Virus record (IMG/VR): IMGVR_UViG_3300005664_000018 | Location: 1 to 36,258 of that record | Strand: one strand, 5' to 3' | Origin: a virus | Length of the DNA: 36,258 bases | The notes under the pieces: generated by a model | The model's database searches: none | Told to the model about the DNA's origin: nothing | The model's input: only the letters and a program-made list of their open reading frames with translations | Translations under genes and position numbers: made by a program | Part shown: positions 1-34,839 of the stretch, one piece after another | Layout: the number at the start of each line of letters is the position of its first letter | Numbering within the stretch: the first letter of the stretch is position 1

Positions 1-101
1 GCATCATCCTGACCAATAAAATCCCATTTAATTTCTATTGGTATGTTAATGTATTTATCGTTCCCTTTTGGTAAGGTAAAGGCGTATTTATTATTATTCA
101 C
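1..101 (-). CDS. 5' end of an unidentified gene, cut by the left edge
   Basis: A reading frame opens with a GTG at 101-99, overlapping the stop codon of the preceding 605-aa gene (94-96) in another frame, and stays open for 33 codons to the window edge. The peptide begins VNNNKYAFTLPKGNDKYINI and continues with IEIKWDFIGQDD. The short stop/start overlap matches the tight packing of this operon. There is no in-frame ATG in the visible part and no obvious Shine-Dalgarno sequence. Its neighbours are putative virion proteins, so it may be another baseplate or tail component, but the visible 33 residues are too few to assign a family. The existence of the gene is likely, the GTG start is a best guess. 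Confidence 0.5.
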   Translation of the reverse strand, partial: MNNNKYAFTLPKGNDKYINIPIEIKWDFIGQDD

Positions 102-1911
102 AATCGTCTTTTGTTGGTTGAGCCGCTCCGTAAAGAGTTGCGTAGTTATTTAAATTACTTTCTATATAATTAGTTCCTTCCGGTATTATTCTAAAAATAA
201 AATTTTCATATGGATAATGTTTCCCATTTAAAAATGGATAATCCACACCATTCTTATTAGTATCCTTAAATCCATAGGTGTAAATGTCTCTCCAAATAAA
301 AGAATTGTATGTTGTTGAAAAGTAAGCATAATCCGGAACATCAACCATATTGTTAATACTTCCGGTTTCTATGTAATCTGAAAATGCTCTAATTTTTATT
401 TTACTATGTGGTTTGTAATAATAACCCATTTGATTGGCATTATCATCAGTATCTGAAATATTAAAAACAAAAGAATTAAATGTAAATTTGTGATTTATAT
501 CACTAATTAATCTTTCGGTTTGTTCATAATCATTCCATTCATAAAAACCACCATCTAAAACATCACCTTCTTTTAAAGATTCCATATATCTAAAAACAAA
601 TGATGTCGCCGTTGCCGGTGTCAATATTTTTAACGGATATGGTTGATTTAAATCTCCAACAAACACTGAATCTGAATTATCAAGTTTCCACCATTCATTT
701 GGTACATTAAAATTAGTCAACGATAAATTAAAATCAAACCCTTGTTTTAAACCATAATATTGTAGATTTGAATTAGGCACACCAAAGGTTAACCCAAAAT
801 AACCCTTCCATATTGTCGTAATAAATAAATCACTAATTGGTCGTTTATGGTTATCCCGAAATGAACTAACATCAATATCTTTATTAAACGATAGTGTATA
901 TGATTGAGACCCTTCCTTGAAGGATACTCTTTTTACGTTATTTGGAGTATAAACCGGACTTTCAAATTTCTTTTTTGACCCAAATATATTTTTTTCAAAT
1001 CCAGCATTAACAAGAACATAATCCTCAACATTAGTTAATATCTTATGTTGTAATACATAATATTTGGAAGTTGTGTCATTAGGATTATCATTATTTATAA
1101 TTCTTTTAAAGGTACCTTTAGGTTCGTTGTCGAAAGTAGTTCCGGTAAATCCAATATTAAAAATATTAAAAATGTATTCATCCGTTCCCGGCATTCCATC
1201 ACCAAATGAAAATACTTGGAATGTATTAGTATATCCATTATCCAATTTAATTTTAACAAATTCAGATTCTGATAATCCGTGTTTAACTGGACATTTAAAT
1301 TGAATCAAACTATTCCCATTCATAGAGATGTCACTTGAATACAAAATAAACGGTATACCATCAATAGCACTCCAATTATAGTACTGACTACCCACAGGTA
1401 ATGTTGGATTAAAATATTGTAAAACTTTATTAATGTTTTTATAGGGGTAACTAACAAAAAAATTCCAATTATATGTTGAAGCACTTTTTGAGATAAAATT
1501 TATGTGATTGTTTGGTGGTTGTGTATAACCACTAACATCATAATCACTACGAATAAAATCAAATTCGTGATATTGCACAAACCCTTCCCAATATACATTA
1601 TCAGGATTATTATCACACTGTGATAAAACAGATTGAGTTTCGTTTATATAATATAAATTATTCTCTAACGGGGTATATTTTGTTCTTCCGGTGTATGAAT
1701 TATTATACAGTAATTGAAATTTACAAGTAGGTCTAAATGTTGTGGATTTTTGTCTCTCATTATCAAATACCTGAACTAAATTAACATCAATACTTCTATC
1801 AAATTCTTGAATATTTTTAGAATTTTGAACTAAAGGTGTTGGTATTGATAAATCAGTGTTTGTAGATGTTTTATATCTTAGAGAACCTAAAATAATTCTA
1901 ATATCATCCAT
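94..1911 (-). CDS. Unidentified 605-aa putative virion protein
   Basis: I do not recognise this family. The protein is rich in Asn, Tyr, Phe, Ser and Thr with short alternating hydrophobic stretches, which suggests a mostly beta-structured virion protein; there is no signal peptide, membrane segment or coiled coil. It starts one base after the stop of the 1828-aa gene (a TAATATG junction), so it is probably translationally coupled to it and co-transcribed with the gp25/gp6 baseplate block. By position it could be a baseplate periphery, wedge-to-fibre connector or tail fibre component. That role is inferred from context only. The C-terminus ends KDDCE just where the next gene begins. Reality of the gene is certain from its length; function is open. 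Confidence 0.8.
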   Translation of the reverse strand: MDDIRIILGSLRYKTSTNTDLSIPTPLVQNSKNIQEFDRSIDVNLVQVFDNERQKSTTFRPTCKFQLLYNNSYTGRTKYTPLENNLYYINETQSVLSQCDNNPDNVYWEGFVQYHEFDFIRSDYDVSGYTQPPNNHINFISKSASTYNWNFFVSYPYKNINKVLQYFNPTLPVGSQYYNWSAIDGIPFILYSSDISMNGNSLIQFKCPVKHGLSESEFVKIKLDNGYTNTFQVFSFGDGMPGTDEYIFNIFNIGFTGTTFDNEPKGTFKRIINNDNPNDTTSKYYVLQHKILTNVEDYVLVNAGFEKNIFGSKKKFESPVYTPNNVKRVSFKEGSQSYTLSFNKDIDVSSFRDNHKRPISDLFITTIWKGYFGLTFGVPNSNLQYYGLKQGFDFNLSLTNFNVPNEWWKLDNSDSVFVGDLNQPYPLKILTPATATSFVFRYMESLKEGDVLDGGFYEWNDYEQTERLISDINHKFTFNSFVFNISDTDDNANQMGYYYKPHSKIKIRAFSDYIETGSINNMVDVPDYAYFSTTYNSFIWRDIYTYGFKDTNKNGVDYPFLNGKHYPYENFIFRIIPEGTNYIESNLNNYATLYGAAQPTKDDCE

Positions 1912-1912
1912 A

Positions 1913-4900
1913 TTAATTTGTTATATTACTTGTGTTTATCCATTTTGTTTTAAATCTATCAAATGATGAAGCACCTCGTCTTAATCCAAAATAAAAATGA
2001 AATGGTGCTCCAACAGTGATTTTCATATCATCAGGTGTAGGGTTATCCCAATATGTAGGGTCAGCGGTTATATTACCAATAATATTATTAACAGCATATA
2101 TGTAACCCTTTTGAAATTGAGTTTGTATACTACCCGTAGTTCTAAAATATCTTGAGGACGGGAGTAACCTATCTAAAGATTGATAGTTATTTGAAAAAAC
2201 ACTGTTACCATCAACATTGAAATCCCAATTATTAAATTGTCTACCAAAAATGGAATCACTACCAGGATTAGCATTTAGATACCACTGTGAAAATGGTACT
2301 TCTTGTGAATAAACCGGAAAATTATTAAATGAACAGTCACTATTAACTTGAACCGAACCATTAATTATTGTTCTTTTAGGCGTTATATAATCTCTAACTT
2401 GTGTATCTGATGAGAAGAAAATACCCATAACATTATCACAATTAAAAAATATAGGGTTTTGTAACTCCGGAGTTATGGTTGCAACACCATTACCCAAACC
2501 AACACCTGTAGCGGTAAATATTGTACCAACACTATTATTAGGTGAACCAATCAACGTAAAATTAGTTAAGGTCGGTGACCCGAGTGATTTAATTTTATAC
2601 TGTTGACCAATAACAAATGAACCCGAGGAAACATCACTAATAGTGTCAGGATAATTAGACGCTAAGAATGGTGAAACGCCTAATTCAGAATTAATTGATA
2701 TTAATTGAGCGTAATCAGCATCTATTTGTAATTTAGTCCCACCGACATTACTACTTGGTCTGCTATTTGAGAAGTAAGCCAAGATGTTTAAACTACCTAA
2801 TAATGTTTTTAAGAAAGTACTGTCAATAAAACGACTAACAATAAATAAGTTAAGGATATCATCCACGGTACCAAAAGAAGATGAATCTAATCTATTAACA
2901 ACATACCCATCATAATCGTCAGACATAACTAATTCTTGTAAGAAATCAGCTCTAGGCCCTAAATCCATTATTGTTGTTGGAAACCCAATATAACCGTTTG
3001 AACTTGTCTTGAACGTATTAGTTGTCACATCATAAACCGTAGCTCTATAATAATAATTTCTAGTTTGTTCGTGAAAGTTAACTAATCTACCACAGGTAGA
3101 TACAATTGGTTGATTTGGGGTTGAACTAGTTGGCGACGTATACCCTATAACCTCTGTTTTAATCGGGAAAGCATATAACACACCGTTAACCCAATTATTC
3201 ACAAATCTATGTGAAAATACATTTCTACAAGCACCCAACATAACCATATTTCTAGCAATCCATTCAAACATTAATTTCCAATCATTTATTAATGATAAAA
3301 ATATTGTTGTGACAAATCTATAACAACCAAATTCAAATATAGTTTCACCCAAATATTCTTGACAACTGTGACCGGCAATCGTAATAGTTCCATTAGGTCC
3401 GTTACTTTTACAACCATAACATTCTAAATTAACAGAACCACCACAGGTAAAACTATCAAAAACCCTATTAATGTTAGTTGAACCTGATAAGTCTTGAGTA
3501 AGATATTGTAAATCACCTGAACCAACACTACCGGTGGAGTTTTGACTGCTCGTAATACTAAGTACACCTGATTCAGGAATTAAATAAATTTTAAAATTAT
3601 TATTTTTTTGTAACACCATACCATTACAACAATATTCTTCAACATTTGTTGAGGTTGGTAATCTATCACCTCTCATCACAAATTGATTATCATTTGAACC
3701 AGCAGTAAAATTTAAAGTGTTTCCAGTTGTATTGTAAATCGGTGAATAATAATTTGATGTGATACTATAGTTACCAGCTCTATTTGTTACGTCATATAAA
3801 TAAAATGGGTCATATAAATAAAATGGGTCGTAACCATTTTCATCATATCCAAAATCATTAACAACGTCTAAATTTGTAAACATTACAGACCCACCCTCAA
3901 CTATCTCATTAGGGAAATATCCTTGATTATATTGAGTATTTGCTGTATAGGTAAAAAGGGGTAACAAAATATTTTGGTAACCATCTTCATCAGGAAATGG
4001 GTAACCTGGATAATCAACATATATAGGAATTACCCTCCAAGAAAATCTATTAGTTAAACCATTTACCCTGATTCCGTAAGTAGATGATATAGTTACAACT
4101 TCATTATCCAAAATTGGTTTGGTATTAGTTGGGTTAATACTACCGCAAATTACATTAACAGTATTTAAAGACCTATTATCCATACTTGAATAATAATTAA
4201 TTAAATTTGAATTAAATCCTGAATACCCTGAGTTAATAACACCATTATATACATACAATGTTCCTGCCGAGTATCCGGTTATAGGACCTGTTATTGTTTG
4301 CATTTGTGATTTATAAGAAAATGAGTTAAAATATAACTGTTGATTAGTGTTAGTATAAGCGTCAAAACCAATATTACCACCCGTGGTAATTACACTTCCA
4401 CCACTATTTGTAATGGTGATTTGGGGATAATCATTTGTTAAATGACTAATATTTTTAAACTTACCTTGTATCGGTATATTCATATGATAAAAACCTCTAA
4501 CAGATATTTGATTTTCATTATTATAACCAAATAATTTACCTAAACCATATTGTATATCAACTTTAGGTGTGTAAGGGTCAACACCTCTATTTAAAATTAA
4601 AACACAAATATTAAGGTAATCTTTAACATATTCAAGAGTTTTAAAATCAGGTATGTTATCAGCGTTATTAACATAACCAGAATTATCTTCTTGAGCCATA
4701 AAAATATCATTATTTAAATAACGAGTATTTAAAGAATTAAAACCTATCTCATTGGTAACACATTGACCACTAAATTGATTATAGGTCATAGCGGTTATGA
4801 CTTGGAAATATTCAATATCTGTTGGGAATTTATGGTAATTATTTGTTGTGGTTGCCGTTATGTTAACATTGTATTGAACCGGTGTTGTAACATTTCCTGT

Positions 4901-7399
4901 ACCATCTGTTTTAGCGTAATAAATATTGATATTTGTTAGACCCGTTGATGTAACCCCCGTAATTGCGTTATTTCCATAAACATTTGTAATACCACCCTTA
5001 ACATTAACATCTTTAGTATATGTGGGATTTTGAAACGATATTAACTGACCCGGTTTTAAACTATTTAAACTTTTTTTATCACAAAGTATTACAATTGTAT
5101 TATCATAATGTTCATTAACTGTTTGTGTTGGTTGGAAATTAACTGAAATTCGATTAACCCCTCCACCAGGATTATTAATAGAATTATTAAAATACTTAGA
5201 TTTAAGATTAAATAAATTAACCCTATCAGCAATAGGTAAACAAGTTGTATAAATAAATCTGTCTTGAGTCGAGTCTTCAGCACGAACATATGTTGCGTAT
5301 GGTGCTCCGAGATTATTTGAAGCGAATTGACCATCATACACAATACCCGATAATTCTTGAGAATAAACGACGGCTCTTTCAGGAAAATATCCACTTGGAT
5401 TTGACACACTTCTTGTTGGTATTTTAAACACACTTTGTGAAAATAATGGTAAAATACCCGGAGTTAATTCAACACTACTAATTGTTATGTCTGAAACAAT
5501 ATTATCACAAGGTACTCGAGGATTATCAGAATCTAACGCCCCTTCAGCACCGACCCCTTCATTAATATTTTCATTAACACTAGAATCAGGACTACAAGAA
5601 CATAACTCACAATCAGGATAAGTTAAAATTGGTACTTTAACACCATTTAGTTCTATTTTATTTAACATTCTTAATACCAAAGCTAACAAAATACCTAAAA
5701 CAACATAAATGGCAATCATAGCTAAAAACCCAACGATTAATCCTAAAGAATACGGTGCGGTACCACCAATTAATATACCATAATTAACAATATTATAAGC
5801 ACACCATATAATTAACCCTGGTATTAATATCGTTCTTAAAAGCCACACAACAAAATATAAAATGTGTAAAACTAATATTATTGCAAAAAATACAGGTGTT
5901 AAAATAATACTAAAAAACATAAAAATGATATATAAAATATCAAACCTGAAATTACCATCATTTGTTGGAAATCTATAATTTAACCCTGAACAAGTTTCAT
6001 CTAATATATTTTTTATACCAACATACCTTTCAATACCACTACCTTGATTATCTCCTGAAATAAATTGAGATACTGTATAAACTTTATTATACTGCATCAC
6101 ATAAAATCTATCTTTACAATCTATTGCGTCTTGGATAACTTGACTATAACTAGGGTGACCACTATAAGCGTAATCTCCCCAATCAACACTAAAAGCATAT
6201 GAAGTATCAATATGTGATGGTATATTATTTTCTCTAATATTTGGTACCAAAAAATACGCTCGTCTCGTAGTTTCACTTAGTGAGGGTGACTGAGCCCATT
6301 TAACTTTAAATCGATATTTACCCCTTGTTGGGATACCCTTTTCAGGGTCATTCGACAACACCTGTTCTCCAAATTCATTTGTAATATAATAATCTAAATT
6401 CATTGGTACATCAATTAACCAAGTACCATTTTCATCAATAACTTTTCCACCACCTTCTAAACTAAAGTTTTCCAAAATTGGTCTACCATTAATATCTTGT
6501 TGGATTGTTTGTCTAATAGCTAATATTTCACCCGGACCAACAGTTAAATTACATAAATGTCCTGAATTACTTGGTGGTCTACAACCTGAAGAAACCGCAC
6601 TACTATTAGGTCCTGATATAATTGACCCCATAAAAATGGATGTTGGTCTAATTTCTACATTTGCCTCACCACTTAAATCAAAATCAGTTCTTGTTATACC
6701 TAAATTACAAATTTCAGGTTGTCCCCATAATGGTTCAACCTCAATAGTTCTATTAACTGTAACTAATTGTGGTAATTCTCTTAAATTATTTGACGATTTA
6801 AAATTTGGTCCTGAAACTTGAGCTTCAGTTGCAACACCCATTCTAATCAAATCTTGAGGTGATAATGAAAATTCACCAATATCAGACAAATCAACATCTA
6901 AAACCACGGTATGTACCCCAACAGGCACACCAAATATCATATAATCACCACTATCATTTGTAGTTGCGTTATACTTATAATACTTGTCATATACTTTAAT
7001 TAATGTTGGGTTAGTTAAAACATCTGTTCTTGTAAAGAATGTACCGGTTGGTATATGAGCACTATATGATTTAACGTAAGGGAGTAAATTATATCTATAA
7101 CCATCATCATTAACATCAGATAATGATTTATAAGGATATAATTCTGAAATTATTGGGTCTGATTGGTCAATACTGTCTATTGGTATGAAGACCGAAACTT
7201 TAGCGTTTGGAATACCAAACCCATTATTAACACTAACACGACCAACAATAACCCCATAATCAGCACATTGTCGAGTATAAATGTCACTCTGTAATATTTT
7301 TAAGGATAGAATCTCTAAATAATCAAACTCTTGGTCAATTAAAACCTTAATTGATTTGTCCACACCGGGCTGAGTTCGTATTCTATATGATTTTGACAT
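1913..7399 (-). CDS. Giant (1828 aa) virion-type protein with N-terminal regulatory-like beta domain and internal membrane block
   Basis: Residues about 45-170 resemble a carboxypeptidase-regulatory/Cna-B-like beta-sandwich: a VIVGRV strand, then GIPNAKVSVFIP, and later a DSGDYMIFGVPVG turn. Residues about 486-576 form a nearly uninterrupted hydrophobic stretch with three or four potential membrane helices, followed by a Cys-rich CELCSC patch. The long C-terminal half is beta-rich, has further Cys clusters near residues 1320-1345, and holds near residues 1590-1640 a small module ending in a GTIFTATGVGLGNG-type motif that recurs in many phage structural proteins. An 18-bp tandem duplication lies inside the gene. 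The ATG at 7399 has an A-rich leader. It lies among baseplate genes, so a tail/baseplate or adhesin role is likely. The membrane block is unexpected for a virion protein and may act during genome delivery. Family not recognised. Confidence 0.75.
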   Translation of the reverse strand: MSKSYRIRTQPGVDKSIKVLIDQEFDYLEILSLKILQSDIYTRQCADYGVIVGRVSVNNGFGIPNAKVSVFIPIDSIDQSDPIISELYPYKSLSDVNDDGYRYNLLPYVKSYSAHIPTGTFFTRTDVLTNPTLIKVYDKYYKYNATTNDSGDYMIFGVPVGVHTVVLDVDLSDIGEFSLSPQDLIRMGVATEAQVSGPNFKSSNNLRELPQLVTVNRTIEVEPLWGQPEICNLGITRTDFDLSGEANVEIRPTSIFMGSIISGPNSSAVSSGCRPPSNSGHLCNLTVGPGEILAIRQTIQQDINGRPILENFSLEGGGKVIDENGTWLIDVPMNLDYYITNEFGEQVLSNDPEKGIPTRGKYRFKVKWAQSPSLSETTRRAYFLVPNIRENNIPSHIDTSYAFSVDWGDYAYSGHPSYSQVIQDAIDCKDRFYVMQYNKVYTVSQFISGDNQGSGIERYVGIKNILDETCSGLNYRFPTNDGNFRFDILYIIFMFFSIILTPVFFAIILVLHILYFVVWLLRTILIPGLIIWCAYNIVNYGILIGGTAPYSLGLIVGFLAMIAIYVVLGILLALVLRMLNKIELNGVKVPILTYPDCELCSCSPDSSVNENINEGVGAEGALDSDNPRVPCDNIVSDITISSVELTPGILPLFSQSVFKIPTRSVSNPSGYFPERAVVYSQELSGIVYDGQFASNNLGAPYATYVRAEDSTQDRFIYTTCLPIADRVNLFNLKSKYFNNSINNPGGGVNRISVNFQPTQTVNEHYDNTIVILCDKKSLNSLKPGQLISFQNPTYTKDVNVKGGITNVYGNNAITGVTSTGLTNINIYYAKTDGTGNVTTPVQYNVNITATTTNNYHKFPTDIEYFQVITAMTYNQFSGQCVTNEIGFNSLNTRYLNNDIFMAQEDNSGYVNNADNIPDFKTLEYVKDYLNICVLILNRGVDPYTPKVDIQYGLGKLFGYNNENQISVRGFYHMNIPIQGKFKNISHLTNDYPQITITNSGGSVITTGGNIGFDAYTNTNQQLYFNSFSYKSQMQTITGPITGYSAGTLYVYNGVINSGYSGFNSNLINYYSSMDNRSLNTVNVICGSINPTNTKPILDNEVVTISSTYGIRVNGLTNRFSWRVIPIYVDYPGYPFPDEDGYQNILLPLFTYTANTQYNQGYFPNEIVEGGSVMFTNLDVVNDFGYDENGYDPFYLYDPFYLYDVTNRAGNYSITSNYYSPIYNTTGNTLNFTAGSNDNQFVMRGDRLPTSTNVEEYCCNGMVLQKNNNFKIYLIPESGVLSITSSQNSTGSVGSGDLQYLTQDLSGSTNINRVFDSFTCGGSVNLECYGCKSNGPNGTITIAGHSCQEYLGETIFEFGCYRFVTTIFLSLINDWKLMFEWIARNMVMLGACRNVFSHRFVNNWVNGVLYAFPIKTEVIGYTSPTSSTPNQPIVSTCGRLVNFHEQTRNYYYRATVYDVTTNTFKTSSNGYIGFPTTIMDLGPRADFLQELVMSDDYDGYVVNRLDSSSFGTVDDILNLFIVSRFIDSTFLKTLLGSLNILAYFSNSRPSSNVGGTKLQIDADYAQLISINSELGVSPFLASNYPDTISDVSSGSFVIGQQYKIKSLGSPTLTNFTLIGSPNNSVGTIFTATGVGLGNGVATITPELQNPIFFNCDNVMGIFFSSDTQVRDYITPKRTIINGSVQVNSDCSFNNFPVYSQEVPFSQWYLNANPGSDSIFGRQFNNWDFNVDGNSVFSNNYQSLDRLLPSSRYFRTTGSIQTQFQKGYIYAVNNIIGNITADPTYWDNPTPDDMKITVGAPFHFYFGLRRGASSFDRFKTKWINTSNITN
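3791..3826. repeat. Perfect 18-bp tandem duplication inside the 1828-aa gene
   Basis: The unit gtcatataaataaaatgg occurs twice in direct succession (3791-3808 and 3809-3826). It adds six residues, so the protein reads DPFYLYDPFYLYD. The two copies are identical at DNA level, pointing to a recent slippage event that keeps the reading frame. Confidence 0.9.
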
Positions 7400-7416
7400 A
7401 CTTTTTCTTTTTTAAT

Positions 7417-7436
7417 AAATAGTTTATACACTATTT
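7417..7436 (-). promoter_or_regulatory. Inverted repeat with late-type TATAAA element upstream of the 1828-aa gene
   Basis: On the minus strand the leader holds a perfect 7-bp inverted repeat, AAATAGT and ACTATTT, around a GTATAA loop. The overlapping TATAAACT (7428-7421) resembles the T4 late promoter box TATAAATA and lies 22 bases before the ATG. An A-rich stretch then leads to the start codon. A similar AAATAG...CTATTTAT arrangement precedes the 1652-aa gene. In such A+T-rich DNA the promoter call is weak; the symmetry itself is plain. Confidence 0.35.
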
Positions 7437-7474
7437 TTAAAAGATAATTCATAATATTTCAAAATAAATTATGT

Positions 7475-8383
7475 TTAAAATTTATATTTCATAACATATT
7501 CAATAGGCGACTGATTATTAAGTGTTGTTTTAACAAGACCACAAACCATTATGTGTGTTTTATCATCAATAGATGTATGTGTAGTATTCTTAACATGGAA
7601 ATTAATTATTTTTGTGGTTGTATTACTTTTATAAGTATAAACTTGTCCTCCGGAATTAGTAAAGAAATAAAAACTGTCACTCCAAGGGTCTGAAGTTAAA
7701 TTTACAACATTCTCTACATTTGATTTAACTAAATAATTAACTGAGTTATTTTTTTTATTGGCAATATCTAAAAAAACCACTAAATTAATATTTATGTTAT
7801 TTTTTGATAATTTATCTAATACCTGTGTAATATTAAAACCACCTAAACTATGTCCAACTAAAATCACACGACCGTTAGGTTTCATCATCTTATAATAGTA
7901 AATGGTTGTATAAACTTCTTGTGGTGTTAAATTATATGAGTAACTAGCAACATATGTTAAAACTTTTGTGTTCTTATTATCAGTTTTTGACTCAATAAAA
8001 CCTAACCCTTCTTTATCTCGGGAATTAACAATGTCAACCTGTGTTTTGTTCTTATCTAAAACATCCGAAAACGGACTATTAGCCCCTTGTATAACAATTA
8101 CTAAATTTTCAGTATTTTTATCATAGAACTTGGTTACATATTCAATAGTTTCATTTTTCTGACGTATAATCATTTGTTGTACATCAGTCATTAGTATTAA
8201 GGTAATTAATAAAAGTACAACATATTTAACAATACTGTTATTTTTTAAAATTCTATTTAATAAAAAAATAAGAATCAGGAAAACCCAAAATCTAAAATTT
8301 AAAACAGTTGCAACAACAATTGTTTGTGGCCAAGTACCATTAACACCTTTAATAAACTCAACTATATCATAAAAAAAATCCAT
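7475..8383 (-). CDS. Membrane-anchored alpha/beta-hydrolase (lipase/esterase-like)
   Basis: The N-terminus carries two strong hydrophobic segments (about residues 20-43 and 49-68), predicted as membrane helices. They are followed by a globular part with the nucleophile-elbow motif GHSLGG near residue 178, preceded by the strand RVILV, as in alpha/beta-hydrolases of the lipase class. VVFLDI about 25-30 residues later could supply the acidic residue and THTS near residue 275 the catalytic His. The length of 302 aa fits a compact lipase-like domain plus membrane anchor. It lies between the gp6-like gene and the 1828-aa virion gene, behind a hairpin that covers its own start codon, so it may be expressed separately from them. 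Cleavage of host membrane lipids or surface esters, in lysis or in entry, is inference; the substrate is unknown. Confidence 0.65.
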   Translation of the reverse strand: MDFFYDIVEFIKGVNGTWPQTIVVATVLNFRFWVFLILIFLLNRILKNNSIVKYVVLLLITLILMTDVQQMIIRQKNETIEYVTKFYDKNTENLVIVIQGANSPFSDVLDKNKTQVDIVNSRDKEGLGFIESKTDNKNTKVLTYVASYSYNLTPQEVYTTIYYYKMMKPNGRVILVGHSLGGFNITQVLDKLSKNNININLVVFLDIANKKNNSVNYLVKSNVENVVNLTSDPWSDSFYFFTNSGGQVYTYKSNTTTKIINFHVKNTTHTSIDDKTHIMVCGLVKTTLNNQSPIEYVMKYKF

Positions 8384-8420: not shown

Positions 8421-10259
8421 TTACGAAAAATTAACAGTTTTTAAATTTTTAACTCTAATGTTGATATCTTTGTTAGGGTATTTTATTTGATAAATTTGAT
8501 TTGGTTCCGCAAATATAGTATCATCAACCAACCCAATTTGTTTTGTTGAACTATCACTATATCTCTGAGATGTTTGTGACGAAGAATATTGACCCCCAAC
8601 TTGATTAAACACTTGTATATCCGATAATGAGATTACCCCATTTTCACTTTGTATCAATCTTCTTAATTCCGATATATTAACATTTTCTCCCATTTGTCGA
8701 TTTATCGGGTCAAAATATTCTGAAATAATAGTAATTATTTGTGATATTACTGTACCTTGGTTTTGTGTATTATCTAAAACCACATCAACATTAAAACTTA
8801 AATCAATTACATTAGCACTTTGTATTGACACATAATCATTTATCATACGATAATTTGATAAGTAATTTGCCACATTATTTTTTAAAGTATTTGAAATAAC
8901 TTCAGTTAACCCACCTGACTCATCATAAGATAACATTTGAACAATAATTTTGTTATTATTTTCAGTTATTGAAACTTTTGCCGGAGCACCGAATTGTGAT
9001 GGCATTGTTCTTAAAATAGAATCATAATCATTAACAGTAACCGCTCTTTTTTGTGCCGAAAAATTATATGATACCAAATTTCTCACTTCTTCAGTTGTTG
9101 GAAAGTTAGCCCCACCGATTGCTGCCGTAACATTAGTACATCTTAATGAATTAACAACAGTCGTATTGATACTTTCTGACGGACCATTAACAAAGAATGA
9201 TACCGTACCTATTTGAGTAATGGAATTAACCCCAATATTACTACCGGTACCACCACCAACTCTATATTGTACAAATAATGTTGTGTTAGGTTTTAAAGTA
9301 CTACCTAACGCTAAATTGTTTGAATACTTATATAAGTTTAATTGATACCCATCTCTTGCAAATTCTCTTAGTTGTTCATCCGCGGACTGACTCCCACCTC
9401 CAAAAGTCATTTTCATAAAACCTTCAGGTGTGAATTCACTAATAAATTTAGTACTAGTTTGGATGTACTTACCAACTTTAATTCCCGGAGCGTCCGAAAC
9501 TTTTGTTGGGTCTTCCACAAAAACTCTATCTTCCGCCAAAGCATCAACTTCATACCATCTATCATTTAACCCTAAAAACTCTTGAGCCGAAGGTATATTA
9601 GCATATTGAGTACTGTCTTTTAATAAAACACTAGTTATTCCTAAAACATTTTTTTCAGGTAAAAATAACTCATAAAAAGGTCTAACATCATTAGGTGTTA
9701 TAACTTTTTTGAAAACTTTTGTTGTTCCATTAACAACTGTTTCTCTTTTAGTAATTGTATAATTTAAAAGTTTGTTATTTGAATCAAAATTTGGGATTTT
9801 TAACCTGTTTGGTAATCCCTCAGCATTTATTGGTGATGCAAAATCAATATCATAAACCGTTTCAAATACTTGACCGGCACCATTAACTTGTGACCCTCTT
9901 CTTAAAATACCACAATACCTTAAATCTTCTTTGTCCCCAAAAGCTGGAACTGTAATTGAGAAATCAACTAATGCCACCGATGGTCTCATTCCCGGAACTT
10001 TTAACCCGTATGTTTTTGCAATATTAAAAATTGATGACCTTTGTTGAGCATATTGTAAAACTGTTTCTTGAACACTTCTATCAATATTAAATTGTAAATT
10101 ATCCGTGACAGCGGCATTTAAATCCAACAACACTGAAAACACAGAAGCGTCATTAAAATTTTGAACTGTATCAGGATAATAAGTTTTTGTGAAATTAATT
10201 AATTCTGTTCTAATTGATTGGAAATCCCTAGTTGTATAGGATATTTTTTTATTTGCCAT
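8421..10259 (-). CDS. gp6: Baseplate wedge protein, T4 gp6 / baseplate J-like
   Basis: The 612-aa protein opens with YTTRDFQSIRTEL and, soon after, DASVFSVLLDLNAAVTDNLQF, the typical N-terminus of T4 gp6-type wedge proteins; this is followed by an AKTYGLKVP segment. The middle has Gly-rich turns (VGGGTGSNIG) and the sequence RAVTVNDYDSILRTMPSQFG, the conserved region also found in the gpJ/gp6 family. gp6 forms the central ring of wedges around the hub and triggers sheath contraction. T4 gp6 is of similar size (about 660 aa). The gene follows the gp25-like gene with a four-base gap, the same pairing as in many contractile tails. The start ATG at 10259 sits behind TATAAAATT rather than a clear Shine-Dalgarno sequence. 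Confidence 0.88.
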   Translation of the reverse strand: MANKKISYTTRDFQSIRTELINFTKTYYPDTVQNFNDASVFSVLLDLNAAVTDNLQFNIDRSVQETVLQYAQQRSSIFNIAKTYGLKVPGMRPSVALVDFSITVPAFGDKEDLRYCGILRRGSQVNGAGQVFETVYDIDFASPINAEGLPNRLKIPNFDSNNKLLNYTITKRETVVNGTTKVFKKVITPNDVRPFYELFLPEKNVLGITSVLLKDSTQYANIPSAQEFLGLNDRWYEVDALAEDRVFVEDPTKVSDAPGIKVGKYIQTSTKFISEFTPEGFMKMTFGGGSQSADEQLREFARDGYQLNLYKYSNNLALGSTLKPNTTLFVQYRVGGGTGSNIGVNSITQIGTVSFFVNGPSESINTTVVNSLRCTNVTAAIGGANFPTTEEVRNLVSYNFSAQKRAVTVNDYDSILRTMPSQFGAPAKVSITENNNKIIVQMLSYDESGGLTEVISNTLKNNVANYLSNYRMINDYVSIQSANVIDLSFNVDVVLDNTQNQGTVISQIITIISEYFDPINRQMGENVNISELRRLIQSENGVISLSDIQVFNQVGGQYSSSQTSQRYSDSSTKQIGLVDDTIFAEPNQIYQIKYPNKDINIRVKNLKTVNFS

Positions 10260-10263
10260 AATT

Positions 10264-10722
10264 TTATATATTAATAATTACAAAGTCACTACTATTGAAT
10301 ACGTCATTATTTATCGTATAATCAATTTTAACTTTTGCGGTATGTTCTTTATCTGAGATATTAGGAACCCTGAATACTCTCTCGTCGTTATCGTTTATAT
10401 AACTACCTTTATCTTCATCACCGTCAGATGCCGCAGTAATACTAATCTTCGTTATAGTAATACCGGGTAAATACTCGCCAGCTGACTCTCTAATTTCTGA
10501 TTCAATTTCAGAAAATGTTGGTCCGTCTAAAGGTTCAAAAATAAATTCGTATAATCTTGTTCCAAAATCCGGTAAATAATACCGACTACCTTTTCTTGAT
10601 AATAAAAGGTGTATTAAATTTGACCTAATTTCTTGTTCATTATAATCGGATAAATCCAAATATTTTCCATCAAAAGAATCTCTGAAAGGAAATGTTAACC
10701 CATATGTAATTCCATCTGCCAT
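10264..10722 (-). CDS. gp25: Baseplate wedge protein, gp25-like (GPW/gp25 family)
   Basis: The 152-aa sequence has the family signature: IRSNLIHLLLSRKGSRYYLPDFGTRLYEFIFEP split over residues about 31-63, followed by an acidic IESEIRES helix and ITITKISI strand. gp25 is the lysozyme-fold wedge subunit that joins the sheath to the baseplate and is conserved across contractile injection systems. The protein is about 20 residues longer than T4 gp25 (132 aa), with an acidic insert around DGDEDKG. It is the first gene after the nrdA terminator, so it should have its own promoter; TATAAAAA (10756-10749) and TATATTTATAG just before the ATG are candidates but not convincing alone. Confidence 0.9.
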   Translation of the reverse strand: MADGITYGLTFPFRDSFDGKYLDLSDYNEQEIRSNLIHLLLSRKGSRYYLPDFGTRLYEFIFEPLDGPTFSEIESEIRESAGEYLPGITITKISITAASDGDEDKGSYINDNDERVFRVPNISDKEHTAKVKIDYTINNDVFNSSDFVIINI

Positions 10723-10806: not shown

Positions 10807-13221
10807 TTAAGAACCACATCCGAAACACTCAAACTCGGAATCCGAAGGTTTTTGTGTTAAATCAACCGTTGGTTTCTCAGTTGGTTTTGATTGACCTACT
10901 TTTGAGATATCAACAGCTAAGTGTTTTGCTCCGGTTGATATCGCTTTTGTTCTAACATAATAACAAAGAGTTTTTAGTCCTTTACCCCAAGAATGGAAGT
11001 GTGATGATGAAATCTTTGATAATGTTGGGTTAGACATATAGATATTCATTGATTGTGATTGGTCAATGAATGGAGCTCTATCTGCCGCCATATCAATAAG
11101 TTCTCTTTGAGATATTTCCCAAATCGTTTTGTATTTTGGGATTAAATGTTCTATTCTCTTAACTTTTTTATTGTAATTTTTATCTTCAATGTCAAGATAA
11201 TTATTAAAATTAATATTTTGAACAGAACCTTCATTCATAATGATTTCATTTTTTAAATCCTCACCCCAAATACCAATTTTTTCAAAATCGTTAATTAAGT
11301 ATTTATTAACAATTAAAATTTCTCCCCCAACTACACGACGATTAAATAATGCCGAGTGAGCCGGTTCTGTCATTTCAAATGAACCAGTAATCTTAGCAGA
11401 AGATGCTACTGGCATCTGAGCGGTGAATAACGAGTTACAAACCCCGTGGTTGGATACTTCTAATTTTAGATTATCCCAATCCCACATTCTACCTAATCCT
11501 TCGTAATCTAACCCCCACATATCAAATTGGAATATACCTTTTGACATTGGTGACCCTTCAAAGAAATCATATGGTTTATATTCACCTGTTTTACATAATT
11601 CCATACTCTCGGTGATTGCCGCGAAATAGATAGTTTCAAAGATTTCTTTGTTTAACTTTCTTGCCTCTTCAGATGTGAAGATATAATCCATTAAGAAGAA
11701 TACGTCAGCAAGACCTTGAGTTCCAATAGCAATCGCTCTTTGTTCTAAACCACCTTTTCTACCTTGTTCAGTTGAATAACTATTGATATCAACAACTTTG
11801 TTAAGTGCTCTAACAACATTTCTAACTTCACTATAAAGTAATTTAAAATCAAACTCACCTTTTATAATAAAGTTTTTTAATACCATAGATGATAACGTAC
11901 AGATTGCCGTTGTGTTCTCATCAGTATATTGGTAAATCTCATTACATAGGTTAGATTGTTTAATTACCCCAATGTTTTGATGATTAGTTTTTCTGTTAGC
12001 ACTATCTTTAGAACATAAGTAAGGAACTCCGGTCTCAACCTGAGATTCAATAATTTTATTCCAAATTGTTTGTGCTTTTACTTTTTTACCAAGTCCAAGT
12101 TCAACCGCTTTGTTGTAATTTTCTTCATACTCATCACCGTAAGCATCCTGTAATGGTTTGATACCCGCTTTGATAATATCGTTAGGACAGAATAAATACC
12201 AATCATCGTTATTCTTAACCGCGTTCATAAAGTTATCCGGTAACCAAATTGAGGTAAATAAATCTTTTGCTCTCAATTCTTCTGCACCTGTATTCTTTTT
12301 GATTTCAAGTAAGTCCATAATGTCTTTATGCCAAGGTTCAATGTAGATGGCGGCACTACCGGGTCTTCTCCCTTGTTGGTTGAAGAATCGTAACCCTTCA
12401 TTAACAATCTTCAAATATTTCAATAAACCACCGGCAAATCCACCTGATGAGTTAATACGACTCTCTTTACTACGAATGTTAGACATACATAATCCAATAC
12501 CAGCTGCGTCTGATGAATACGTTGAAATATCATTAAAAGTATCTAATAAACCTTGTCTTGAATCCCCATTATTGTATTTTAATACACAAGACGCTAGTTG
12601 AGGCGTTTTAGTTCCCGCATTAATCATAATTGGTGTTGCCGGAGATATAAGTTGGTTTGATAACGAATTGTAGTATTCAACCGCCTCTTCAAATGATTTA
12701 GTTACCCATAGAGCGACTCTCATATACATATGTTGAGGTCTCTCAATAATTTTACCTTCAGGATTTTTTAACAAATACATTTCTGATAATGATTTCCACG
12801 CAAAATAATCAAAATTGTAATCATTCTCGTGATTTATTACGGCATCAATATTTTCAGGTCCGTATTTTTCAATAGTTTCCATTAACTTATCGTTAATAAT
12901 ATCATCAACGTGTAATGTGTGCATTGTATTACAGAAACTTTCATCAGTCTCTTTGTGATACGCAGATATCGCCACAGATGACGCCAATCTTGAGTAGTCG
13001 TGATGACTTCCGGTATAAGCAGCTGCAATCTCGTAAACCAATTTATCTAACTCTTTTGTGGTAATCACACCTTCAGTCGGAACAGAAGTAATCACCTTAA
13101 TGAATACCTCATCAGCATTAACGTTTAACCCTTTAGCCGCTCTTTTTACTCGACTGTATATTTTTTGGGGGTTAAACGATACCTCGTCACCCCCTCTTTT
13201 TTTTATTTTTAGTGACATCAT
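10807..13221 (-). CDS. nrdA: Ribonucleoside-diphosphate reductase, large (alpha) subunit, class Ia
   Basis: The 804-aa protein begins with an ATP-cone (residues about 1-90) for allosteric activity control. The catalytic barrel shows LASCVLKY (the first active-site Cys, near 209), NLCNEI (radical Cys with its Asn and Glu, near 424) and ICTLSS (partner Cys, near 438). The C-terminus ends ECFGCGS, the mobile Cys pair that re-reduces the active site. It reduces ribonucleoside diphosphates to deoxy forms with NrdB, supplying dNTPs for phage replication. The start at 13221 is supported by AGAGGA eight bases before the ATG, inside the end of nrdB; a second ATG follows directly. The nrdB stop and nrdA start are adjacent, so translation is probably coupled. 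No thioredoxin or glutaredoxin gene is seen in the window. Confidence 0.97.
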   Translation of the reverse strand: MMSLKIKKRGGDEVSFNPQKIYSRVKRAAKGLNVNADEVFIKVITSVPTEGVITTKELDKLVYEIAAAYTGSHHDYSRLASSVAISAYHKETDESFCNTMHTLHVDDIINDKLMETIEKYGPENIDAVINHENDYNFDYFAWKSLSEMYLLKNPEGKIIERPQHMYMRVALWVTKSFEEAVEYYNSLSNQLISPATPIMINAGTKTPQLASCVLKYNNGDSRQGLLDTFNDISTYSSDAAGIGLCMSNIRSKESRINSSGGFAGGLLKYLKIVNEGLRFFNQQGRRPGSAAIYIEPWHKDIMDLLEIKKNTGAEELRAKDLFTSIWLPDNFMNAVKNNDDWYLFCPNDIIKAGIKPLQDAYGDEYEENYNKAVELGLGKKVKAQTIWNKIIESQVETGVPYLCSKDSANRKTNHQNIGVIKQSNLCNEIYQYTDENTTAICTLSSMVLKNFIIKGEFDFKLLYSEVRNVVRALNKVVDINSYSTEQGRKGGLEQRAIAIGTQGLADVFFLMDYIFTSEEARKLNKEIFETIYFAAITESMELCKTGEYKPYDFFEGSPMSKGIFQFDMWGLDYEGLGRMWDWDNLKLEVSNHGVCNSLFTAQMPVASSAKITGSFEMTEPAHSALFNRRVVGGEILIVNKYLINDFEKIGIWGEDLKNEIIMNEGSVQNINFNNYLDIEDKNYNKKVKRIEHLIPKYKTIWEISQRELIDMAADRAPFIDQSQSMNIYMSNPTLSKISSSHFHSWGKGLKTLCYYVRTKAISTGAKHLAVDISKVGQSKPTEKPTVDLTQKPSDSEFECFGCGS

Positions 13222-13222
13222 A

Positions 13223-14173
13223 TTAAAAGTCCTCTGTAAATGTTAATGATTCTCCTAATTTAGCCTTTTGATATTCCATAGTTCTTGACTCAAAGAAATT
13301 ACCCTTTGTTTCAACCGCTATTTGTTCCATAAATTTAAATGGTTGTTCAACATTAAAATGTTTTTTACATCCAAATTTAATTAGTAATCCGTCAGTTACA
13401 AATTCAAGGTATTGTTTCATCAAGTTTGAATTCATACCAATTAACGATACCGGTAATGACTCAGTGATAAACTCTTTTTCAATCTCTAACGCTGACAATA
13501 AGATTTCTTTAATTCTTTTTTCTGTTGGTTTGTTCTCAACGTGATTGTTAATCAAATGGATTGCAAAATCACAGTGTAAATTCTCATCCTTGAAGATAAG
13601 ACTATTCGCATTACATAATCCTTGCATAATTCCTCTTGATTTCATCCAAAAGATAGAACAGAATGAACCGGAGAAGAAGATACCTTCAACCGCAGCAAAC
13701 GCCACTAATCTTTCTTGGAAGGAAGCATTCTCAATCCAATCAAGAGCCCATTTAGCTTTCTTTTGAACTGCCGGTAATCTATCAATTGCGTGGAAACACT
13801 CATCTTTCTCTTTTTCATCAGACACATAAGTATCAATCAATAATGAATACATTAAAGAGTGAATATTCTCCATCATAATTTGGAATCCGTAAAAGAATTT
13901 TGCTTCAGCATATTGAACCTCTTTTAAGAAATTCTCAGCCAAATTTTCATTTACAATACCATCAGACGCTGCAAAGAACGCCAATACATTTTTAAGGAAA
14001 AATCTTTCATTATCTGATAGGTTTTCCCAATCTCTAATATCGTTAGATAAATCCACTTCTTCTGCCGTCCAAAACGCTGCTTGGTGTTGTTTGTAAAATT
14101 CCCATATATCATTATGTTCAATTGGGAAGATAACGAATCTGTCGTTATTTGGTTCTAATATTTTTTCTTTCAT
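13223..14173 (-). CDS. nrdB: Ribonucleoside-diphosphate reductase, small (beta) subunit, class Ia
   Basis: The 316-aa protein is an R2 diiron ferritin-fold subunit. All metal ligands can be seen: D71, E102, H105, E163, E197 and H200, in the contexts AASDG, ENIH, AVEG and ENLH. The radical tyrosine is Y109 (ENIHSLMY), so this is a Tyr-radical class Ia enzyme, not the Phe-containing class Ic type. The C-terminus, FTEDF, is the kind of acidic-aromatic tail that docks into NrdA. It generates and passes the radical to NrdA. The gene begins one base after the helicase stop (TAATATG) and ends just before nrdA. Order nrdB-nrdA is the reverse of the usual bacterial nrdAB. Confidence 0.97.
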
Positions 14174-20977: not shown

Positions 20978-23900
20978 TTAAAATTTAAAATTGTATGAAA
21001 ATGATTTTATAGCCTGTTTTCTTGTATTGTCAAACTGTCCTCCTGATGTCATTGGGTTTGCAGATAAACATAAAGTTAAATTATAGTCCCCTTTATTATC
21101 GGTAGAATTACATTTGAATTCGGTCAATAATGATTCAGTATCAACAAAATATTGTTGTTTATTTGAACTTATACTACCAGCTGAAAGGTCTACATTAGTT
21201 CCTGAACCATCATTACAAGGAGCGGTTATATTATAATCCCATCTCGCAGAAATTATATCCCATAACCCTTTAGAAGGGTCTATTCTAACTTTTAAGGATT
21301 CAATTATTGGTTTATTAGATATAGTATAAGTATATTCAGGAATAAATGGATTAGATACTATATCAGTTGCCGATTGTTGTGTTTGCGTGAAATTACCCGT
21401 ATTTTCATTAAATAATTTTATTGCTTTATCAACGTTAGATTCTATATTACTAAGATTTGTGGTTCCCACCATTTTAGTATAAACATTTTCATCCTGAGGT
21501 ATCGCCATTGAATATAAAATTATAAATTTAGAGATTTCTTCTTTATTTAAAATTTTAATAGTTGGTGATGATTTTTCAAATCGACTAATTAAAAAATCAA
21601 TATTTTTTTCTAAACTATCAAACATAACATATGGGTTACTATTTAAAGGACCACCACAATAATATTTTTTGGTAAAGAACGCGTCAATTGACGCACCCCA
21701 ATCACTCATTAAATCCGTACCACTATAGTTATTTGATTGAGTACTTAAATTATTAACTCCATTATTACTATTCAAATACATTTTAGCAAACACACTATAA
21801 GCAAGACTTAAAGGTTTACCATTAGTTTTTGATGATATTAAATCAATAATTTGTTTATATGTTGCCGTGGTTCCTGTTGGTGTTTCAGGAGTAAATTTAC
21901 CATATTTATCATCGGTTGTTTTAACCGGTGGACATTCTTGTGTATTTTGTGGTTTAGTAACATTTTGTTGAGTATTATCATCAACGTTTTTATTTGTTTG
22001 ACCAATAACATTACTTGTAGAACCTGCTAAGTTTGAGATAGAACTTTCAACCCTTCTTTGATTATTTGTCTCAATTATAGTCTGTAACAAAGTTGTTTTC
22101 AAAGATTGAATGTAATTCTCAACTAATGGTAAAGACGCTGTCGGTTGTCTAATACCTTCAAAAGTAGTTTCAAAATTACCGGGCGTTATAGTATGATTAA
22201 CCTTTTGTATCATATATGGACCACTAAACATCGGAACGTGTCTCAAATTAAAATACATAGTTGGTTGTATCATAGCATTACCCATCATATTTACCGAACA
22301 GGCGTAACTCCTATTTTTATATAAATTATACAACGACATATTTTGAGTTGACCCCCCTCTATTTCCTGATTGATTAGCCATCTGATTAATAACCTCTAAC
22401 GACTCAGCTGTTGGTAACCCCGGATTTTGGGACACATTAAACCCTTTAAATATTGATTGATTTTGAGTTCCAAATTCAACGTTAAACCCAACAACCTTAT
22501 TTGATTTATCCCAATCATTTTTACCAATTTGATTTTCATTTAATGGGTTATCACTAGCCCGTCTCAAATCAAAAGCATCATCCTTAAATCTATAATCAAC
22601 ACTATTAATTGCGACGTGTTGACTTGGTTTACCCGCATAAAAACAAACCATCTTTGCCGATGAATTTCTATAATCAACATTCATAAAAGTACCGAACATT
22701 GTGTTTGCAAATTCCAAAGTACCATCAGGTTTTGGTTTTGGATTTTTCACCGCATCTTGTACATTATAAAAATTAACATATGAAGGTATATTCATAACAA
22801 CAAAATTATTTGTTACCAAAACATCATTAACATACGTTAACATGCTCGTAGTAATATTAATATTGGTTAAAGTATTTTTCAGTTTTATTATATCAACCAA
22901 CACTTTTTCACCAATATTTCTACTTGCCCTATCCATCAATAAAACATCTTCAAATAAAGTTTTGTTTTTAAAATCATTACCAGCAATCCACTTATCATTT
23001 GTAGCCTTAAACGATTCCCATAATTCCAATTTACTTTGAGTACTTTCTAAAACAGATTCTTTTACGGGTTTTGGTGTTTCGGTTACAACCGGTAATAACT
23101 TTTTAATTTTAATCATTGTATTATTAACAATGTTATTGTTAAACGTATCCAAATTATCTAAATACCCGTCCATTAATTTACTAAACTTATCATAAGTTAA
23201 AGTATTATCTTTTAACTTTTGAGTTGCATAAATTTTTATGATTGGCCATAAATTTTTAATATTTTCCGAGTCAAAAGCAACATTACAATCAATAAAGAAA
23301 TCAGTAATATAAGAACCACTATCTTTATAACTTAATTCCGGTATGTTTGAAAACCCAACATATGTTTCTAATGTAATCCACACATCTCGTTTTGCATTTA
23401 CAGAATCAATTAATGATGGAGAACCAATTGTACTACTTGGTAATGAATTTGGTGTTACATATCTATAATAGTCCCAAGTGTATGGACTAGTTACAGTGTG
23501 TTTTGGTGACGATGAAAAAGTCCCAAACAATCTTCTATCAAAATTAGATGGATTACCATTTTTAAGATATATATTATAATCTAAAAATTGAGAAATAATG
23601 TTAGACATATTTGTCAATTGTTTTGATTGTATATCTTCAACCAATAATGTATTATTAACCGTTGTGTTGGTTATTTTCATTAAATTTCTCATCAATGATT
23701 GAAAATTTTTAAAACTTGATTGAGTTGTCGTATCCGTAGAATTATCATCTTCAACATATTCATATGTTGATTTTGTAAAATTTAAAAATTGAGTCTCAAA
23801 CTTATCTAAAGTTTCTTTACTAAAAACAGAAAACAATTCACTAATATCCGTGTATTGTTTATCCTCACCATTTATTGAGAAGTTTTCCTGAAATGTTTGT

Positions 23901-26900
23901 CCTTTCCATATTTCTTTTAAATATCTTGTTGGTGAAGGTTTTACTATTTTAGAATTATCAAAATATCCGTAATTTGGTGCAGCCCAAAATAATCTAACAG
24001 AACCATTATACATTGATGTGTTACCGGATAAATCAAATATCAAATTACCAAAACCATCAACACATTCAGATTTTGCTTGATTTATAATGCTACCGTTTGA
24101 CGGCATTATAAATTGATATTGGTCATAATCAGATTTTACTGATATTGACCAAGGAATTACCACGTTGTTTACAGTATTTAAGATTGGAACTTGTTTCGTA
24201 TTATTAATAACCGCTTCAGGAACATAATTTAAAACAAGACCTTCATTAAACCCATTTTGAATATCGGTATTAGTATACCCGGTAAAAATTGTATATCCTT
24301 GGTAAAAAATATTAAAATCATTTATTAATTTAGGGTAAAATCCTGTATTAATTGTTGTTATTGAATTATTACTACTAGATGTTGATACCACCTTATATTG
24401 TTCCAAAACAATTGATGTTCCACTTATTTGTCCCGGAAGAAATAAATCATACGTTTTAGTTTTATCATTTGTTACCGGGTCATAATTACCAACATAATCA
24501 AAATTATTCCAACAATTATCTAATATATCAACATTTTTTTCAACATATGTTTTATATCGATTCCATATTGAACCCACCTTTAACACCCAAGCATAAGGCA
24601 TTTTATGTAACCCCCCAAATTTATTTAAAGATGCAAAAATATAATCTAAACTTTCGTCAGAATAATTATCTTCAGTTCCGGTATATGTTTTATATTTTTC
24701 TCTTAATGTTGATAATGGTAAACTATTAATAAACAAATACGCCGAACTAACAAATGGGTATTGTTCTTTATTTCTTAATTTTTCAACCCCCTCTTGAATG
24801 GCGTTAATAAAATAAGGCGTGTTTAATATAGACGTTGTTTGGTAATTACTAACTAATCCAGTATAATTTAAATATTTAACATCACCTTCTGTTGGTAATT
24901 GATTAGTATACGTTCTACTTGCATAAAAAATTCTAAAATCATCATTAATTATTTTAGGTGTTACAATATTCTTATAAACAAAATTTGTAATAGGTCTTTT
25001 ATCATCTTGACCTTGAGAATCCGTGAAATTACAAATTACTTTTTTATTACTATTATAAACTAATGTTTTTGTAGTATTAAACGATAATTTTTCATCTGTT
25101 CCAACTCCATTCGACAAATTATTTTGAACCCATTTTTTATCAGTAAACGGATAAATATCTGAAAAATCATATTTGTTTGATGTTGTTGAGTTTGAAACAT
25201 ATGTTGTAATATCTTCTTCTTTATTTAAAGAAACTAAAGGTTGTGATTTTGTATCATCAATATCGTTTTGACTTTTAAACTCAAATTCTGCATTCTCAAC
25301 ATCGTTTTTTATATATCCAGTATTAAAAATTCCTCTTATAAAATTTTGCCAACTTGGTCCATTCCCTTCGTTGGATATAAGTTTTAACACACTTTCAAAA
25401 TTATTTGATTTTAAATTATTGTCTCTAATAATTTTAATTAAAGATACGTCCGAATTTGATATACTATTTTTTATATTAATACTTTCAGCATCAGCAATTA
25501 CATTTGAAACTTTATCTAATTCTGTTGTGTTATTTTCACATCTATCTAATTTTGAATAATGAGATGTTAATAAAATTCTTTCATAAATTTCATAAATGTA
25601 ATTAACATCAACTTTATTAGCAAAAACTTCATTACTAACCGGAAACTCAATAGCCCCTAAAGATACTCGGGTTGGTTCGGTTACTGAATTTGAATTATCT
25701 GTGGTAGGTTGTGGAGGTGGGGTTCTTTGAGTTAAACCTCTAATAAACTCCTCAACAAACTCAATTTCAGGCCAAACATCGTATAAATAACCTTTTGTTT
25801 GACTAATAATATCATTATCCCCCGGATATCTTACTTCATATTTTTCTTGTCCATTTTCTCCGGTTGTTGCTTTAATTACTTGAGGCCAAGGATAGATTGG
25901 TTGGGTTGAATTACTGCCTGAAGTTTGGTTATCAGGGTTAGCGTTAGAAACTGTCGTATCAAAAATAGCATTTTTTCTAATCTTATCATCTCTTTTTTCC
26001 CAAGCTTTGGTATGAACATCATCCATCAACCTTAAAAAAGCTTCACCATTAGCAAAAATAACCGCAAGAACATTTCTGATATTAGGAATAAAACCAATAC
26101 CATTATCCTTACTTTCCAATAATTCCGCTAAAGCCTTTGTTAATTCTTCTTGGATTATTTCTCTTTTTGTTTGAAGGTCCTTATTCATTTTATCAGTTAA
26201 ATCAATAAAACTATTTTTGCCTTCAAACACAAAATATTGTGATGTTGCTTGTTTACTACCACCTTTAAGTGTTATGGTTATATTGTCTAATATATTGTCA
26301 TTTGTTAATTCCGCACGAAATTTAGTTAAATCCTCCGGTGTTGGTTGACTATTTTTTCTTTGTGCTTTATACGTCTCTTCAAGATTTATATCATCGTAAT
26401 TAACATTTTTTGGAAAAATCTCATATTTAACAGGGTTTGGTATTTTACACTCGGTTTTTTTACCATTAATCTCATAACTACCATTATCACCACAAGTTTT
26501 ATTACTATTTAATAATGTATTATACTTATCAAGTATACCTTTTAAATCCGCAATAGCATCACTTTTAGTTTGTATTGATGTATTTTTTTTAAATGTATAA
26601 ACTTTTTGTCCTGTATTTAAAATATAATAATTATTAACGTCCATATACTTTTGAAACCAAGAAGTTTGTAATGTATAATACACATCTTTTTGAAAATCCC
26701 TTAAATTATTACTATATGTATCTAAATCCGTTAAAGGGTCTAAATTTTGTTTAGTAAATGATTCTAAAACATTTGTGATAAAATTTTCAATCCTATCCTT
26801 CATTTGCATAACAGTTATTTCCGGAAAATCATTTGGAATCAACCCTTTAGATTTATATTCACTATACATTTCAACTATCTTTTGATAACCTCGTTCAACA

Positions 26901-34819: not shown

Positions 34820-34839
34820 ATTAAATGTGTTTATAAATA

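Follow-up and report, generated by a model that had tools for sequence, protein, structure and literature searches.

A conserved hydrophobic block with a hypervariable half in a giant baseplate-locus protein of uncultured phages

The locus described here raises the question of whether a giant protein encoded among baseplate genes could enter the host membrane during DNA delivery. To our knowledge, the passage of the DNA of contractile-tailed phages across the inner membrane is poorly understood. We analyzed a fragment of an uncultured virus taken from an IMG/VR record, 36,258 bases long (referred to as the window). A preliminary description of this DNA had pointed to a membrane-type block at approximately residues 486-576 of an 1828-aa virion-type protein, and had proposed that the block is either inserted into a host membrane on DNA delivery or belongs to a host-membrane protein. 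We refer to the 1828-aa protein as BIG. The genes considered in this study are listed below.

94..1911, minus strand: gene of a 605-aa protein, always directly downstream of BIG
1913..7399, minus strand: BIG, 1828 aa, member of a baseplate-locus family of unknown function
7475..8383, minus strand: abh302, 302 aa, an N-terminal hairpin of two transmembrane (TM) segments and an alpha/beta-hydrolase domain with GHSxGG
8421..10259, minus strand: gp6-like baseplate wedge protein (Baseplate_J), identified with Pfam and PHROGs
10264..10722, minus strand: gp25-like baseplate wedge protein, identified with Pfam and PHROGs
33044-34849: candidate tape measure protein, 601 aa, encoded by a gene separate from BIG

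The adjacent homologues of gp25 and gp6 identify a T4-type contractile baseplate locus, and genes of a gp26/T4_baseplate-like hub protein and of a gp53-like protein were found upstream. The order gp25-gp6-(optional abh302)-BIG-605-aa gene was observed in all loci of sufficient length. The gene of the contractile sheath (PF04984) sits outside the window; it was detected in the genomes of large relatives, namely in all five relatives of 208-322 kb (E ≤ 1.7e-7), with a match above the curated cut-off in three of the five. The baseplate setting and the sheath agree with the earlier designation of BIG as a virion-type protein, and the gene order makes a tail or baseplate role of BIG, as a putative virion part, likely. 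Further genes were noted in the window. The ribonucleotide reductase genes nrdA and nrdB (window 10807-14173) lie between the replication genes and the gp25-gp6-BIG cluster, a position retained in many relatives. A homing-endonuclease-like ORF (window 35837-36256) adjoins the gp26-like hub gene.

We found at least 163 relatives of BIG in IMG/VR in a first scan and at least 533 in a profile scan. These counts are lower bounds and the relatives are metagenomic contigs, the largest of which carry BIG on 308-322 kb. BIG had no Pfam or PHROG family matches and no match among PDB profiles, and pattern-based scans of 85k cellular genomes gave no relatives. The search of 50,697 GenBank phage records did not reveal any relative of BIG as a whole; a single piece of approximately 56 residues, close to the C-terminus, was matched. 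The sole clear database relative was A0A8S5LA66, an uncharacterised protein of Myoviridae sp. ctPuP5 (BFVD). It is a direct homologue of BIG (44% identity over 384 columns, E = 1.8e-30), but it is a predicted protein of a metagenomic virus, without an assigned function. The nearest gp6 proteins among GenBank phages were those of LR756508 (484 kb), Flavobacterium phage immuto and Microcystis phage Mel-JY01. The proteins of 1265-1404 aa encoded downstream of gp6 in these three phages have no TM block, and their homology to BIG was rejected, as none was detected by hmmsearch or hhalign.

Outside the block, the AlphaFold model of BIG consists mostly of strand and coil, on both sides, in line with the beta-rich flanks described earlier. 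The most conserved part, approximately residues 40-240 (6680..7282, minus strand), is modelled as a beta-sandwich like carboxypeptidase-regulatory or CnaB-like domains. The Foldseek matches of this part were weak (best PDB E = 0.011; carboxypeptidase-regulatory-like in BFVD, prob 0.95). The model of the C-terminal part gave no usable fold match, and none of the soluble parts gave a profile match or a convincing Foldseek match to any baseplate protein. We rejected the assignment of BIG to the T4 gp7/Afp12 wedge family, which agrees with the gene position and has no sequence or fold support (Pfam, PHROG, PDB profiles, Foldseek). We also rejected a tape measure function, as BIG is strand and coil apart from the block and a separate 601-aa candidate exists. 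Further, residues 1588-1645 (window 2465-2638) form an insertion missing in nearly all homologues, and residues 1585-1640 share 55% identity with a 'phage stabilization protein' of Caudoviricetes sp. MW202481. This suggests that the insertion may be a mobile domain module.

The lack of homology to baseplate proteins would also fit a different reading, in which BIG is a host-membrane protein of the infected cell that acts in envelope remodelling, lysis timing or exclusion and is not part of the virion, although it is encoded within the baseplate gene cluster. The neighbouring abh302 is likely a membrane enzyme, and BIG has its own conserved upstream element, which points in the same direction. 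This element, ATAAACTATTTAT, was found in the spacer immediately 5' of BIG (7400-7474, minus strand) and is conserved also in distant relatives, as seen in a comparison of 18 relatives. In its exact form it occurs once in the window, in this spacer, and it is possibly a BIG-specific promoter or translation signal. A hairpin considered in the same spacer was dropped, as the pairing fails in some relatives. However, the gp25-gp6-BIG-605-aa order is strict over a clade in which identity ranges from approximately 42 to 100%, BIG is very large and its strand-rich parts are like those of tail fibre or baseplate proteins, and there is no hydrophobic signal segment at its N-terminus. Insertion on DNA delivery and a host-membrane protein of the infected cell are inseparable by sequence; taking the locus into account, we consider the latter distinctly unlikely.

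We analyzed the hydrophobic block and its surroundings, in which the following features were distinguished.

5990..5992, minus strand: C470, just before the block, invariant (156/156)
5657-5938, minus strand: hydrophobic block, residues ~488-581, approximately 90 residues, almost uncharged
5834..5938, minus strand: first half of the block (TM1-2), residues 488-522, universal
5645..5833, minus strand: second half of the block (TM3-4), residues 523-585, hypervariable; type A in this virus, linked to hydrolase presence
5594..5620, minus strand: Cys motif YPDCELCSC, residues 594-602, after the block; this is the Cys-rich patch noticed previously

Residues 488-576 of BIG contain one charged residue, R522. 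Three non-overlapping 19-residue windows of the block reached Kyte-Doolittle (KD) values of 1.77, 2.85 and 3.02, and Wimley-White octanol values of 12-19 kcal/mol. The best 91-residue KD mean was 2.11, compared with 0.66 ± 0.14 in 5000 shuffles of BIG (maximum 1.35, z approximately 10). AlphaFold2, run with 64 relatives, placed helices at residues 488-547 and 552-581 (pLDDT approximately 80-92), while the flanks 430-487 and 589-645 were poorly predicted. Hydropathy far beyond that of the shuffles and the modelled helices confirm a membrane-type block in the middle of BIG. The preliminary description had named a buried coiled coil as one result that would speak against this view; the helical hydrophobic moment was low along the block, and an amphipathic coiled coil was ruled out by the moment together with the composition.

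The earlier count of three to four membrane helices was retained in part. The hydrophobic block is long, but AlphaFold shows one helix of 60 residues and one of 30. Because of these two helices, and because approximately 35-40 hydrophobic residues are left in the block of the shortest relatives, the number of membrane crossings may be 2, 3 or 4. The first hydrophobic stretch covers approximately 35 residues and is often broken by R/K-Pro or T-Pro near 501-502. A tight hairpin would be compatible with such an interruption; in the AlphaFold model, by contrast, this stretch is part of a single long helix.

Among the proteins of the window, clear TM segments were found in BIG and abh302 only, and therefore BIG is the candidate membrane-penetrating tail protein. 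No clear TM segment was present in the presumed tape measure (601 aa) or in the 1652-aa and 2249-aa proteins, and NrdB had one 19-mer at KD 1.77 with little octanol preference. The 2249-aa (window 20978-27727) and 1652-aa (window 28046-33004) proteins are giant products of the tail cluster and had no family matches; a weak OmpA-like stretch lies at residues 896-933 of the 1652-aa protein. A second hydrophobic patch, at approximately residues 1330-1445, was observed in some relatives of BIG and is below the threshold in the BIG of this window.

The block was conserved throughout the family. Its best 19-residue KD value was at least 2.17 in 156 of 156 unique relatives, while any other 19-mer reaching KD 1.6 within residues 1-469 and 603-710 was found in two of the 156. 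Loci were also collected by gp6 alone, to avoid selection on BIG itself. Among those with enough downstream sequence, a long frame with the block was present in 51 of 53. The two exceptions are L249 and L279, where the start of the first long downstream frame lies late, which gives the impression of a broken gene; in L249 this frame still contains the hydrophobic segments. The same segment is thus found in related phages, whose lack of it the preliminary description had regarded as evidence against its claim, and such a segment, conserved in all homologues, is one of the features expected of a membrane-inserting tail protein.

Conservation was unevenly distributed along this region. P478 was invariant among the 156 unique relatives, as were C597 and C600 of the Cys motif, and C602 was present in 154. 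His512, which is located in TM1-2, was found in 154/156 relatives, and residues 501-502 are usually T/R/K/Q-Pro. Mean pairwise identity was 0.67 for residues 1-469, 0.39 for TM1-2 (residues 487-522) and 0.17 for TM3-4. The distance from D487 to P590 varied from 49 to 147 residues.

The second membrane protein of the window, abh302, had weak Pfam matches to several alpha/beta-hydrolase families and no PADLOC match. The catalytic set of a GxSxG elbow, an acid and a His is complete, and the triad S179, D206 and H269 was invariant (15/15). The mean net charge was +3.8 in the loop between the TM segments, -1.2 before them and +0.1 after them. According to the positive-inside rule, this charge of the loop means that the hydrolase domain should be periplasmic. 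We conclude that abh302 is a probable two-TM inner-membrane protein and that its hydrolase domain is probably located in the periplasm. All abh302 matches adjoin gp6, and wherever the contig reaches they also adjoin BIG; both neighbours were present in 103, and in 8 the contig ended before BIG. In the 308-kb and 322-kb contigs of viruses without abh302 at the gp6-BIG slot, it was absent from the entire contig. Two other loci are of note with respect to this slot. In L102 it is occupied by a TnpB-like (IS605-type) gene (2409-3602), while elsewhere it contains abh302 or is empty; from this gene, the slot looks like an insertion site. L055 carries abh302 of the L017 type (7006-7929), though its BIG is sister to that of L065, and its TM4 resembles the TM4 of L029. 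This locus points to a possible horizontal exchange of abh302 between sub-clades.

The presence of abh302 followed the type of TM3-4. On trees of 63-residue windows of BIG, it changed 2-3 times in the block and 5-15 times in every other window (8-15 across residues 1-504, 5-10 after residue 568); on trees of large BIG regions it changed 5-9 times. The higher numbers in conserved windows are due to poorly resolved trees. However, windows as variable as the block (631-693, 1072-1134 and 1135-1197) still gave 6-8 changes. In 81 of 83 cases the nearest neighbour in TM3-4 agreed in abh302 status; L095, a natural partial exception to the pairing, and L433 did not. The N-terminal tree implies 8 changes of abh302, and the TM3-4 type follows it in five of six independent supported contrasts and opposes it in none (sign test, p = 0.0625). 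The motif used for typing TM3-4 as 'A' was picked after the sequences had been seen, whereas the window-tree scan and the nearest-neighbour test are independent of it. Among hydrolase carriers, the divergence of abh302 correlated with that of TM3-4 after correction for the rest of BIG (partial r = 0.34, permutation p = 0.001). A few other windows of BIG also had positive partial correlations, and this sliding-window distance correlation is suggestive and less specific than the tree-based scan. Altogether, the coupling of TM3-4 with abh302 rests on about 6-8 independent changes.

The covariation taken alone could have arisen passively, if TM3-4 and abh302 had been transferred jointly on the same DNA segment, with later homogenisation of the intervening N-terminal region by recombination. 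The codons of the two are only approximately 1.6 kb apart, and the N-terminal 480 codons are very conserved, which would make recombination easy. On the other hand, all intervening and following windows are decoupled from abh302, in contrast to the 2-3 changes in the block, and the passive link would be broken by repeated single crossovers. With such decoupling over the intervening stretch of approximately 1.6 kb, simple linkage explains the covariation poorly. We regard the passive origin as rather unlikely, and functional matching of TM3-4 to abh302 as the better reading of these sequence comparisons.

The same covariation bears on the question of whether the block stays buried in the baseplate at all times, as a hydrophobic bundle of helices, and has no contact with any membrane. 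Helical core bundles do occur in baseplates, and the AlphaFold model, with one very long helix and a return helix, would be compatible with one. However, approximately 90 residues are uniformly hydrophobic with no amphipathic pattern, the variation in D487-P590 length would be odd for a packed core, and TM3-4 evolves together with a membrane-anchored enzyme. The covariation favours a block that acts in a host membrane over one that forms a buried core, and we consider the bundle very unlikely.

Our preferred reading, to which we give a little less than an even chance, is that BIG is a part of the baseplate or tail tip whose hairpin is inserted in the host membrane at delivery, with a variable second hairpin matched to a partner, maybe in superinfection exclusion. 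BIG would become part of the baseplate of a contractile-tailed giant phage, or be attached to it, with the hydrophobic hairpin shielded. A metal or disulfide clamp at the hairpin base could be formed by C470 with C597 and C600 (and C602). After tail contraction the hairpin would enter the host membrane, probably the inner one, where it would dock the tail tube or form part of a DNA conduit. The universal, Cys-flanked TM1-2 with His512 would serve as the insertion device, and the hypervariable TM3-4 would meet a specific membrane partner, as the covariation implies. In type-A viruses this partner would include the phage's own abh302. The likeliest role of abh302 would be to act on incoming type-A virions (superinfection exclusion or immunity); otherwise it may be a cognate helper of the type-A block. 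Since abh302 is phage-encoded and is expected in the membrane of the infected cell, the simplest function would be to exclude type-A virions that arrive later. The features of the block and its surroundings suggest membrane insertion at DNA delivery, though the 1250-residue C-terminal part after the block needs to be accommodated in such a model.

The main rival to insertion at delivery is a role in assembly: BIG would hold the nascent baseplate on the inner membrane of the infected cell, and the block would act at that stage instead of at delivery. BIG is in the same cluster as gp25 and gp6, residues 1-487 would stay cytosolic as there is no N-terminal signal segment, and abh302, which covaries with the block, is a predicted membrane protein too. 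There is also a precedent, the tail-fibre-like Cis13 of the Anabaena tCIS, which has a putative TM helix entering the membrane and for which thylakoid anchoring was shown; conservation of its TM domain often goes along with that of other baseplate extensions (PMC8894136). However, tCIS remain in the cell, whereas a phage needs release, after which the hydrophobic block would be exposed on the virion. Moreover, a general assembly anchor should show conservation throughout, and the hypervariability of TM3-4 does not fit this. We consider this anchor unlikely. BIG also differs from Cis13/Cis12: a single TM region (residues 122-154) is predicted in Cis13, which fixes to the thylakoids a machine that is not released, while BIG is far longer and its block is polytopic.

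Insertion at delivery has been proposed for other tail proteins. The tape measure pb2 of T5 contains a hydrophobic stretch of approximately 46 residues, proposed to form two TM helices and a channel after tail opening (PMC10038345). BIG is similar in being a tail protein with a proposed membrane-inserting hydrophobic stretch, but it is encoded in the baseplate cluster right after gp6, its block is in the middle of the protein between strand-rich parts, and it is not the tape measure; the protein presumed to have that function in this phage lacks a TM segment. In the megatron of RcGTA, a large baseplate protein, a segment is thought to enter the host membrane as a pore (PMC7296036). This segment (iris/penetration domain) is N-terminal, residues 1-46, and the particle has no contractile tail; no sequence relation between BIG and the megatron was detected. 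By analogy, BIG may work like the T5 tape measure, the RcGTA megatron and Cis13, but it belongs to none of them by sequence. For abh302 we propose SieA of P22 as an analogue. SieA is an inner-membrane phage protein thought to interfere with the gp16/gp20 DNA-delivery conduit of an incoming phage (PMC10883804). Similarly, abh302 is a probable inner-membrane phage protein with a possible role in exclusion, but it carries an alpha/beta-hydrolase domain with an intact triad. In the literature searched we found no description of a mid-protein polytopic block, one half of which is exchangeable and linked to a membrane hydrolase, in a giant baseplate-locus protein of contractile giant phages.

We tentatively propose, although we think it on balance somewhat improbable in this full form, a new two-part membrane system of giant contractile phages, in which the variable half of a modular hairpin in a baseplate protein would be an exchangeable specificity cassette, genetically matched to a phage-encoded, periplasmic, membrane-anchored hydrolase that recognises virions with the same type of cassette and either excludes or licenses them. 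In summary, the BIG family, an abundant uncultured clade with more than 500 relatives in IMG/VR, offers a specific candidate for how DNA passes the inner membrane; it combines a universal hairpin with invariant Cys and His residues and a putative specificity cassette. Its natural covariation with abh302 predicts which pairs of block and hydrolase should or should not interact.
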